Positions 19,380 to 22,051 of a stretch of 22,592 bases of DNA are shown piece after piece. The stretch comes from a virus: the IMG/VR virus record IMGVR_UViG_3300017760_000117, positions 1 through 22,592 of that record. One strand, given 5' to 3'. Positions within the stretch are counted from its first letter, which is position 1; every line of letters begins with the position of its first letter. The translations under genes were made by a program, and so were the position numbers. The notes beneath the pieces were generated by a model that saw only the letters and a program-made list of their open reading frames with translations, was not told where the DNA came from and made no database searches.

Positions 19380-19428
19380 ACACAATTTCTTAACAAATTG
19401 TTATAATAGACTTACTCATATAAACTTA

Positions 19429-19457
19429 TATGTAGAAGTTTTGATTAACTTTGTCAA
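19429..19457 (-). promoter_or_regulatory. Candidate host-type promoter of the packaging operon
   Basis: The minus strand has a perfect -35 TTGACA (19457-19452), a 17-bp spacer and a weak -10 TACATA (19434-19429). Transcription would start about 45 bp upstream of the TerS-like gene start. In AT-rich DNA such matches occur by chance, so this is tentative. Confidence 0.4.
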
Positions 19458-19609
19458 ATTGGTTTTGGTTTTGATTAGGTTTTCAAAATTGGTTTTGTGG
19501 GAGTTAGGGAGCGGTAGACAAGTTGCGAAAGTGCGATTCCCCCTCTACCCCCTGCTGATCTGGTAATACAAACAAGAGCAAAAAAACAGTTACGTAAACC
19601 ATTGAGAAT

Positions 19610-19666
19610 CAATCCAAGGTAATTAAAATAGACATTCTCACTACCTTGAATGTTTACCTTGAATTG
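19610..19666. repeat. ACCTTGAAT direct repeat with an inverted third copy
   Basis: ACCTTGAAT occurs twice in direct orientation (19643-19651 and 19656-19664), 13 bp apart. A third, inverted copy lies at 19610-19622: CAATCCAAGGTAA is the reverse complement, with one mismatch, of TTACCTTGAATTG at 19654-19666. Multiple short copies in mixed orientation are typical of protein binding sites. Confidence 0.6.
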
Positions 19667-19703
19667 GTGGATTAATGCATGGTTGTATCGACGTAATTAG
19701 ATC

Positions 19704-19725
19704 CATGCGGTCGGTGCCGTACATG
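19704..19725. other. GC-rich hairpin
   Basis: CATGCGGT and GCCGTACATG pair around a CGGT loop (two 4-bp stems, one G-U pair, with a TA bulge). It is followed by neither T-run nor gene start. It stands out as GC-rich in AT-rich surroundings. Confidence 0.35.
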
Positions 19726-19761
19726 AGCCATGATCACTCCACCCACCTCAAACAATCAATA

Positions 19762-19801: not shown

Positions 19802-20179
19802 TTACATATGTTTGATTGATACGATGTTCCTTTGTTTCAATATCTTGAGACTGTTATTGATTGCATGGCTAATAAGCCCACTTGTATCAAGCGACTTCTC
19901 GCAAGCTTTAAACAGTTCCAACCTAGTTAACTGCTTGTGTTTTTTAATAATACTAGCAATTTGTGTAATAGTTGCACCTTGTATTTGGTTATAAGTCATT
20001 GATTTCCAAGTAATTATAATCCTTTGAGTAATTAATGATCTTTTATCTATTCTTGGTCTAACTCCCAATTTAGCCAGGATCAAAGCCTTTTGCACGTCAT
20101 TAAGCTGATTACTACCGTTAACCGCGAACCATGATACAATATTATCAGGACTTAAATTACTTGCTCGTATCTTACTCAT
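19802..20179 (-). CDS. Small helical protein, possible winged-helix regulator
   Basis: About 125 aa from ATG 20179 (MSKIRASNLSPDNIVSWFAV); an upstream in-frame TTG adds three residues but is unlikely. The protein is basic (many Lys and Arg) and almost all helical. The C-terminal half, ITQIASIIKKHKQLTRLELF then INNSLKILKQRNIVSIKHM, has the shape of a winged helix: a helix, a turn with LTRLELF, a recognition-like helix, then two short strands RNIVSIK. No named family was recognised. It stands alone, divergently oriented to the plus-strand accessory operon across a promoter with palindromic half-sites, and is separated from the packaging operon by 422 bp with repeats. That location suits a transcriptional regulator controlling one or both directions (inference). 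There is no clear Shine-Dalgarno sequence. Confidence 0.6.
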   Translation of the reverse strand: MSKIRASNLSPDNIVSWFAVNGSNQLNDVQKALILAKLGVRPRIDKRSLITQRIIITWKSMTYNQIQGATITQIASIIKKHKQLTRLELFKACEKSLDTSGLISHAINNSLKILKQRNIVSIKHM

Positions 20180-20242
20180 AATTAACAATTTAATACTGAT
20201 TTAGATTAATACAAATAATAAAATATAAACAAAATTAAACCA

Positions 20243-20271
20243 TTGTATTGACAATACGTATTATATAAATA
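20243..20271 (+). promoter_or_regulatory. Divergent-region promoter with interleaved operator half-sites
   Basis: The sequence GTATTGACAATACGTATT (20245-20262) contains a -35-like TTGACA (20248-20253) and three half-sites GTATT / AATAC / GTATT. It includes a perfect 10-bp palindrome AATACGTATT (20253-20262) and the inverted repeat GTATTG-A-CAATAC (20245-20257). The -10 is unclear: TATAAA (20264-20269) is too close to TTGACA but is 15 bp from TTGTAT (20243-20248). It would serve the 89-aa gene on the plus strand. Overlap of half-sites with the -35 suggests repression. Confidence 0.5.
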
Positions 20272-20281
20272 GTTTATCGTT

Positions 20282-20303
20282 ATCTCGATTCCTGAGATTT
20301 TTT
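20282..20303 (+). promoter_or_regulatory. Small hairpin with T-run in the leader
   Basis: ATCTC and GAGAT form a 5-bp stem around GATTCCT, directly followed by six T's. It is a weak terminator or pause site between the promoter and the 89-aa gene, and the first of the series of hairpins in this transcript. Confidence 0.4.
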
Positions 20304-20322
20304 AACCTATTAACTTATAATT

Positions 20323-20592
20323 ATGAAACTTATTAACTACTATCCGAGCACGGGATGCCGTGTTTTTTGGAGCGAAAAGCTCCAACAAGAAATTAGTAAT
20401 CCTCATGGGGATTACTTCACTAGTTACTTTCCCTGTTGTGTGAACGGGGATCCCAAAACGGGATATACTAAATCACAAATCAAAAAAATGATCTCTCAAG
20501 AATTCCCAAAATTTTCTTTGCGTATGGGAAAGCCATTTAACTCTAGGATGGATGGTAGCCTAATCTGGCAAGCCAGAATAAACGAAAAATAG
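20323..20592 (+). CDS. Unknown 89-aa protein encoded on a hairpin-rich mRNA
   Basis: The frame gives MKLINYYPSTGCRVFWSEKL, continues with GDYFTSYFPCCVNGDPKTGY, and ends GSLIWQARINEK. It is aromatic-rich, with three Cys (one CC pair), no membrane segment, and no recognised family. It is the first plus-strand gene after the divergent promoter, where phages often keep early host-takeover or regulatory genes. The leader carries AACCTATTAACTTATAATT, a weak relative of the AAACCTA leaders further on; there is no Shine-Dalgarno sequence. The first half uses codons rich in G and C for this genome (CCG AGC ACG, CAT GGG GAT, GGG GAT CCC), and these are exactly the bases that form perfect hairpins (see the hairpin array). 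The open frame across 89 codons supports translation; the hairpins suggest the RNA also acts as structure. A purely non-coding RNA cannot be excluded. Confidence 0.6.
   Translation: MKLINYYPSTGCRVFWSEKLQQEISNPHGDYFTSYFPCCVNGDPKTGYTKSQIKKMISQEFPKFSLRMGKPFNSRMDGSLIWQARINEK
20349..20464 (+). other. Tandem array of perfect hairpins inside the 89-aa gene
   Basis: Five perfect or near-perfect stems follow each other: CACGG/CCGTG (20349-20362, loop GATG, followed by six T's); GGAGC/GCTCC (20369-20383, loop GAAAA); AGTAATCC/GGATTACT (20395-20416); TCCCTGTT/AACGGGGA (20430-20450, loop GTGTG, one G-U); ATCCC/GGGAT (20450-20464, loop AAAAC). TAACTA (20334-20339) can pair with TAGTTA (20421-20426), closing a junction around the first three. 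Weaker stems follow at 20503-20530 (TTCCCA/TGGGAA) and 20564-20577 (TCTGG/CCAGA). Confidence 0.7.
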
Positions 20593-20602
20593 ATAACAAT
20601 AA

Positions 20603-20630
20603 TTAAATGACTGGTTAAGCAGTCTATAAT
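20603..20630 (+). promoter_or_regulatory. Candidate promoter with an inverted repeat filling its spacer
   Basis: A weak -35 TTAAAT (20603-20608) and a perfect -10 TATAAT (20625-20630) are separated by 16 bp, and those 16 bp are the inverted repeat GACTG-GTTAAG-CAGTC. Transcription would begin about 20637 and run into the terminator at 20647, giving an RNA of about 60 nt. Confidence 0.35.
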
Positions 20631-20646
20631 CTCTCTTATCATAGGG

Positions 20647-20697
20647 AAAGCCTATGTTATTAATATTAATTTATTAATTTCATAGGCTTTTTTTTTT
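20647..20697 (+). terminator. Strong intrinsic terminator
   Basis: AAAGCCTATG and CATAGGCTTT form a perfect 10-bp stem around a 24-nt AT-only loop, followed by a further seven T's (ten in a row). It ends the 89-aa unit; genes from 20728 on need read-through or their own promoters. Confidence 0.9.
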
Positions 20698-20705
20698 GCG
20701 ATATT

Positions 20706-20727
20706 AAAACCTATAAAACCTATATAT
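20706..20727 (+). repeat. AAACCTA leader repeat, copy 1
   Basis: AAAACCTATAAAACCTATAT runs directly into the ATG of the 29-aa gene. Same motif as at 20816, 21569 and 21873. It contains TATAAA but no Shine-Dalgarno sequence. Confidence 0.7.
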
Positions 20728-20817
20728 ATGATACATCAAATACTTATCCATTTGCCCTGGACTTTGGTCCTTATATTTACCGTTGCATTAGCTATTAATG
20801 TAATGACCTCGAAATAA
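20728..20817 (+). CDS. Very small single-span membrane protein (29 aa)
   Basis: The ATG at 20728 opens a frame of 29 codons: MIHQILIHLPWTLVLIFTVA followed by LAINVMTSK and TAA. Residues about 5-25 are hydrophobic enough for one transmembrane helix; the C-terminal end is polar with a Lys. It is too short for a standard gene call, but it has the same AAACCTA leader as its neighbours, and its stop is immediately followed by the next copy of that leader, so the cassette structure supports a real gene. Short one-helix phage proteins include lysis regulators, holin-like proteins and superinfection-exclusion factors; nothing in the sequence decides between these. Confidence 0.55.
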   Translation: MIHQILIHLPWTLVLIFTVALAINVMTSK

Positions 20818-21555: not shown

Positions 21556-21568
21556 GACAATCAAAAAT

Positions 21569-21592
21569 AAAACCTATAAAACCTAAAAATAT
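21569..21592 (+). repeat. AAACCTA leader repeat, copy 3
   Basis: AAAACCTATAAAACCTAAAA with ATAT after it, 15 nt before the ATG at 21608; the most distant of the four copies from its start codon. Confidence 0.7.
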
Positions 21593-21872: not shown

Positions 21873-21898
21873 AAAAACCTAAAAAAACCTAAAAATAT
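21873..21898 (+). repeat. AAACCTA leader repeat, copy 4
   Basis: AAAAACCTAAAAAAACCTAA followed by AAATAT runs directly into the ATG at 21899. The TATAAA found in copies 1-3 is changed to TAAAAAAA, so the shared part is AAACCTA and AAAAATAT. Confidence 0.65.
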
Positions 21899-22051
21899 AT
21901 GAAAACCAGAATTAAATTCTTCAGCCACAATAAAACCATACAAATTCTATCCTTTCACAAATGGGATATTAATACCGAAATCCATTGCAATCATATAGCG
22001 ACAAAATACAAAAATACATTAAAACAAATAATCAAATGGGAAAAAATATGA
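21899..22051 (+). CDS. Very small basic protein of unknown function (50 aa)
   Basis: The frame from ATG 21899 gives MKTRIKFFSHNKTIQILSFH, then KWDINTEIHCNHIATKYKNT and LKQIIKWEKI before TGA. It is basic (many Lys, His), with alternating hydrophobic residues near the start that suggest beta strands and a short C-terminal helix. It begins directly after a leader repeat, and its stop TGA overlaps the ATG of the next gene (ATGA), so the two are translationally coupled. Both facts support a real gene despite its size. No family or function can be named. Confidence 0.55.
   Translation: MKTRIKFFSHNKTIQILSFHKWDINTEIHCNHIATKYKNTLKQIIKWEKI

Follow-up and report, generated by a model that had tools for sequence, protein, structure and literature searches.

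A hairpin-rich, terminator-capped early unit, possibly a moron-like cassette, in a phage related to marine SAR11 phages

Introduction

Morons are exchangeable early-gene cassettes of phages, and accessory cassettes that are transcribed first often carry host-takeover or counter-defence functions. To our knowledge, few first-transcribed accessory cassettes are understood in the group of phages associated with SAR11 bacteria. Among prophage accessory genes, dicB is an example (PMC6832061). The early mRNAs of phage T4 are controlled post-transcriptionally, mostly at translation starts (PMC3014915), and the put sites of phage HK022 are RNA elements of about 70 nt with two stem-loops, situated downstream of early promoters (PMC9378689).

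Here we describe a small, self-terminated cassette that would be the first to be transcribed in its phage and in which hairpins follow one another unusually closely within an orphan frame of 89 codons. It resembles a moron in being a small extra gene with its own terminator, found in one phage and missing from close relatives, and differs from one in that it lies behind the early promoter of the phage, has an unusually hairpin-rich frame and encodes an orphan protein. As in the early mRNAs of T4, the folding of an early phage mRNA would bear on its translation and decay, whereas the structure here fills half of the frame and is not placed mostly at translation starts. With the put RNA of HK022 it shares hairpins in an early transcript upstream of a terminator, but there is no match in sequence or structure, and five stems within an open frame stand against the two stem-loops of put. 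Should the hairpins work as RNA, the unit would be a compact early phage gene whose coding sequence has been bent to RNA structure.

Genome setting

The window, i.e. the whole stretch of DNA analysed, is a virus record of 22,592 bases with 33% GC. The late genes (portal, major capsid and terminase) are on the minus strand, and the early genes are on the plus strand from about 20.3 kb onwards. The phage is related to phages of marine SAR11 bacteria; in its major capsid protein it shares 42-46% identity with pelagiphages of the HTVC010P group, and 51% with a spring-water podovirus. Of the pelagiphages of this kind, HTVC203P likewise has its late genes on one strand and its early genes on the other; none in the phage collection has the 89-aa protein or its RNA. 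A search for tRNA and tmRNA genes in the window found none.

Architecture of the unit

The features of the unit and its borders are as follows.

20248 to 20279, plus strand: early promoter region, with TTGACA at 20248; conserved in near relatives
20282 to 20298, plus strand: leader hairpin with T6 behind it; also found in relatives without the cassette
20292 to 20345, plus strand: left copy of an imperfect direct repeat of about 52 bp (early-gene leader and start region)
20323 to 20592, plus strand: open frame of 89 codons with an ATG start
20337 to 20558, plus strand: predicted RNA domain, five local hairpins enclosed by a 9-bp helix (20337-20345/20550-20558)
20346 to 20464, plus strand: run of five hairpins in the 5' half of the 89-codon frame
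20346 to 20365, plus strand: stem 1, 8 bp, loop of 4, two G-U pairs
20367 to 20385, plus strand: stem 2, 7 bp, loop of 5
20395 to 20416, plus strand: stem 3, 9 bp, loop of 4, one G-U pair
20431 to 20449, plus strand: stem 4, 7 bp, loop of 5, one G-U pair
20450 to 20464, plus strand: stem 5, 5 bp, loop of 5
20564 to 20577, plus strand: small hairpin UCUGG-CAAG-CCAGA towards the frame's 3' end
20609 to 20624, plus strand: hairpin GACUG-GUUAAG-CAGUC between frame and terminator
20640 to 20656, plus strand: alternative hairpin CATAGG/CCTATG; its 3' arm doubles as the terminator's 5' arm
20647 to 20697, plus strand: strong intrinsic terminator, long stem and T10
20697 to 20749, plus strand: right copy of the repeat, running into a 29-codon ORF

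The leader hairpin, the terminator and the 89-codon ATG frame named in the original prediction were all found in the sequence, and its description of a compact segment resembling a transcription unit, with an open frame, is supported. Transcription would start at the promoter region, where the 60-nt block beginning at TTGACA differs at few positions between the window and the near relative L006; TTGACA is also present ahead of the early genes in the more distant L008. Promoter-like sites that could serve the unit alone were not commoner than in shuffled sequences, and the early promoter upstream is common to the relatives. The leader hairpin belongs to the phage rather than to the cassette, since relatives without the cassette have it. 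It lies where the early transcript presumably begins and is kept in L006 and in a second near relative, L003; ahead of the first early gene of L008 a similar stem was seen by eye (ATCTC/GAGAT versus ATCTT/AAGAT), with one pair changed on both sides.

At the other end, the CATAGG/CCTATG hairpin has a predicted energy of -7.2 kcal/mol in truncated transcripts and is displaced by the terminator stem (-22.7 kcal/mol for 20630-20700). It is possibly a weak antiterminator, which could modulate the terminator slightly.

Probable insertion between repeated leaders

L003 and L006 lack the unit at this place, although their portal and terminase proteins are 99-100% identical. In both, the promoter and leader hairpin join directly to the conserved 29-codon ORF that in the window lies 3' of the terminator, and both ends of the unit resemble this single junction. 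When aligned to each other, the two copies of the flanking repeat score 41, against a mean of 18.3 (sd 3.2) for shuffles, none of 2000 being as high. The unit thus shows the marks of a moron-like cassette, namely presence in one phage with absence from L003 and L006, a flanking repeat, and a terminator of its own (20647-20697). Other early genes and cassettes also vary in presence from one of these phages to another; ahead of their start codons stands the motif CCTATAAAACC. Taken together, the varying early genes, the shared leader and the flanking repeat mean that the unit behaves as an exchangeable early-gene cassette, and we infer that it was gained in the window phage rather than lost twice.

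The repeated leader CCTATAAAACCTA(T/A)A stands before early gene starts at 20705-20731, 21568-21590 and 21873-21900, without a Shine-Dalgarno sequence, and is likely a recombination handle for cassette exchange. The 29-codon ORF itself (20728-20817; MIHQILIHLPWTLVLIFTVALAINVMTSK) encodes a single hydrophobic segment and is conserved in L003 and L006.

Hairpin run and predicted RNA fold

At least five back-to-back stems of 5-8 bp within 116 nt had been described from the letters alone; five stems are indeed present, with dimensions of 5-9 bp within 119 nt, and the adjoining of neighbouring stems holds for stems 4 and 5, which abut at 20449/20450. The TAACTA/TAGTTA pairing proposed to close a junction is possible, but the minimum-energy fold instead uses the 9-bp helix 20337-20345/20550-20558, which closes a domain of 222 nt with a pairing probability of 0.98. 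The 5' strand of this helix falls within the left repeat copy, so the helix need not have arrived with the cassette.

The folding energy of the segment is lower than in both dinucleotide and codon-preserving shuffles, a comparison that the original prediction had named as a check. The stretch 20270-20700, which includes the terminator, gave z -5.9 against dinucleotide shuffles. The frame alone (20323-20592) folds at -78.0 kcal/mol, compared with -58.9 +/- 4.3 in synonymous shuffles (z about -4.4, 0 of 500 as low), and stands at z -5.0 against shuffles of codon order and z -6.2 against codons drawn from genome usage (-49.3 +/- 4.6). A 120-nt scan of both strands of the whole window placed 20359-20478 on the plus strand as the most structured segment (z -5.9) apart from the terminator.

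The synonymous-shuffle z of the frame in this comparison (-4.45) is the lowest among 79 coding blocks of about 90 codons, yet lies only 2.7 sd out, because coding blocks of this genome tend as a whole to fold more strongly than their synonymous shuffles (mean z -0.72, sd 1.38). A block of 40 codons covering the hairpins reached z -4.2 (synonymous) and -7.2 (genome usage), where the minima in 305 other blocks were -3.7 and -4.65, and of 442 such blocks from two other phages, 3 were at z -4.16 or below in synonymous shuffles. By itself, the synonymous-shuffle statistic of the frame is not extraordinary.

Where the segment clearly stands out is in its strings of local hairpins. Chained local hairpins reach 32 bp per 120 nt, the maximum of the window, whose 99.9th percentile is 24, and this value tops all of the roughly 9,800 windows of seven related sequences, where the highest was 31, in a phage of 45% GC; the hairpin excess that had been judged by eye is therefore above chance. 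The structure signal is confined to codons 5-48 or so, the second half of the frame being ordinary. The GC-rich character ascribed to the stem-forming codons was likewise borne out: CCG (3%), ACG (4%), CTC (1%), GGG (7%) and CCC (3% of the codons for their amino acid) are rare in the genome, and a CAI-like index is 0.44 in the stems versus 0.59 in the rest of the frame.

Coding status of the 89-codon frame

The evidence on whether the frame is a gene conflicts. A frame of this length is beyond chance, arising in 0.14% (with ATG) to 0.3% of dinucleotide shuffles, and its ATG is placed where the leader repeat sets the start codon of the next ORF. Its codon composition, by contrast, departs from that of the genome's genes, and few of the tested frames look less like a gene. 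At -0.11 per codon, and -0.23 over the hairpin half, the coding score falls below zero, GC by codon position is flat (0.37/0.39/0.41 versus 0.44/0.37/0.20 in late genes), and the frame has the fewest purines at codon position 1 among 38 frames compared. These statistics are compatible with three readings: constraint on the frame from RNA structure, foreign origin of the gene, or a frame that arose by chance in a non-coding RNA. The only other frames with a coding score below zero were a conserved frame of 128 codons on the minus strand (-0.02) and the 50-codon frame at 21899 (-0.23). The latter (21899-22051) is probably a real gene in spite of its score, since a similar start (MKTKIKF.. NKTLQILSF) is found at the end of L006.

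Searches of IMG/VR, GTDB genomes, phage and plasmid collections and the virus records of near relatives found no relative of the 89-aa protein in these collections, from which very close records may be missing. Comparison with known families gave a best PHROG E value of 0.04, a best PDB E value of 0.45 and no Pfam match. A single-sequence AlphaFold model (pLDDT 60) had no significant fold match and was discarded as too poor a guide. At the nucleic acid level, Rfam gave no match at the gathering score and chance matches only down to E 10; blastn of the unit against phages returned only a weak match, to the terminator end; and a scan for the leader repeat recovered the known relative and one chance match. 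A stem-pattern scan of IMG/VR produced one match, in an ordinary 310-codon frame of a 51% GC contig, which was aligned and judged to be chance. As a single copy without relatives, the unit offers no comparative proof of the role of its structure.

Interpretation

We consider the unit best explained as a moron-like, exchangeable early-gene cassette whose mRNA is structured and capped by a terminator, an account to which we give about an even chance. A unit of about 400 bp with its own terminator would have been inserted between the early promoter with its leader hairpin and the remaining early operon, by recombination at the repeated early-gene leader; presence and absence are seen by comparison, and the direction and mechanism are our reading of it. 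Judging from promoter and terminator, the cassette would be transcribed first after infection, as a terminator-capped mRNA of about 415 nt that is likely translated into a small orphan protein. The statistics support RNA-level shaping of the 5' half of the frame into five stable hairpins by means of rare GC-rich codons. Their most likely role would be to slow translation and to protect the first-made mRNA from nucleases, and the terminator may set the amount of transcription that reaches the later early genes. This reading is favoured because the unit is absent from L003 and L006 and flanked by the repeat of about 52 bp while other cassettes also come and go, and because the frame is longer than chance, the hairpin density maximal and the rare codons concentrated in the hairpin half. 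The orphan protein, the negative coding score and the flat GC over codon positions count against it, as does the terminator, which, unless it leaks, would have a polar effect on every early gene downstream.

The main competing reading of the transcript is an RNA that has a dual function or is largely non-coding. A stand-alone, self-terminated regulatory RNA of about 415 nt, directed at a host or phage RNA or protein and carrying a fortuitous or vestigial frame, is a tentative possibility: it would account for the codon statistics that are not gene-like, for the 222-nt domain with its probable closing helix and for a hairpin density that tops all windows, but has to contend with the rarity of such a long frame in shuffles, with an ATG where the leader repeat puts the start codon of the neighbouring ORF, and with the lack of any Rfam match. 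More doubtful is a mobile dual-function early transcript of an unreported class, in which a multibranched RNA domain of about 220 nt would overlap an orphan frame that is also translated, the terminator-capped RNA being released at the onset of infection and acting on the host. It is rather unlikely that the hairpins are a functionless statistical tail, left by the codon use of a gene recently acquired from a higher-GC genome. The distance of only 2.7 sd from the mean of the coding blocks and the equally extreme blocks in two other phages would allow this, but high GC and the rarest codons cluster in the hairpin half, and the hairpin density exceeds every control window, including those of the 45% GC phage.

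Among possible roles, the original prediction had named a cis-acting antitermination element of the put type, which would carry polymerase through the terminator that follows and on to the early genes. The order of promoter, RNA hairpins, terminator and early genes recalls lambdoid early operons, and putR of HK022 lies about 270 nt from its start site (PMC9378689). The put sites were located in the HK022 record by their mutual similarity on opposite strands and then modelled; the resulting covariance model, a weak one of two sequences and ten base pairs, matched the two HK022 source sites only and nothing in the window, which somewhat lowers the case for put-like action. Moreover, put has two stem-loops in about 70 nt, the five stems here lie inside a frame whose ribosomes would unfold them if it is translated, and the relatives live without the element and also without the terminator. 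Altogether, the proposal is not supported and is very improbable. Equally remote is a DNA-level element, whose single-stranded hairpins would serve as an origin, primase or recombination site. The stems are mostly Watson-Crick, and single-stranded DNA folds of 20337-20466 (z -5.7 for the plus strand, -4.9 for the minus strand) are as exceptional as the RNA folds, so thermodynamics alone does not separate the two roles. The RNA structure of the plus strand (z -4.7) is nonetheless stronger than that of the minus strand (z -3.3), four G-U pairs weakly favour RNA, and the unit ends in a transcription terminator; the RNA level is favoured because the hairpins sit in a transcription unit and because near relatives, which should replicate in the same way, lack them.

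Other features of the early region

Divergent from the early promoter, the minus strand at 19802-20188 encodes a conserved protein of about 124 aa, 60-63% identical in near relatives and 27% in L008, which is a candidate regulator. It matched no known family, and its use as a query for further early regions brought up no new phage. Between this ORF and the gene upstream of terminase, a candidate for the small subunit, lies a non-coding stretch (19400-19740) that is strongly conserved in L002, L003 and L006, with a 60-nt core (19587-19646) that is 87% identical even in L008. It contains inverted repeats around CCAAGGTAAT/ACTACCTTG and is possibly a packaging or regulatory site.
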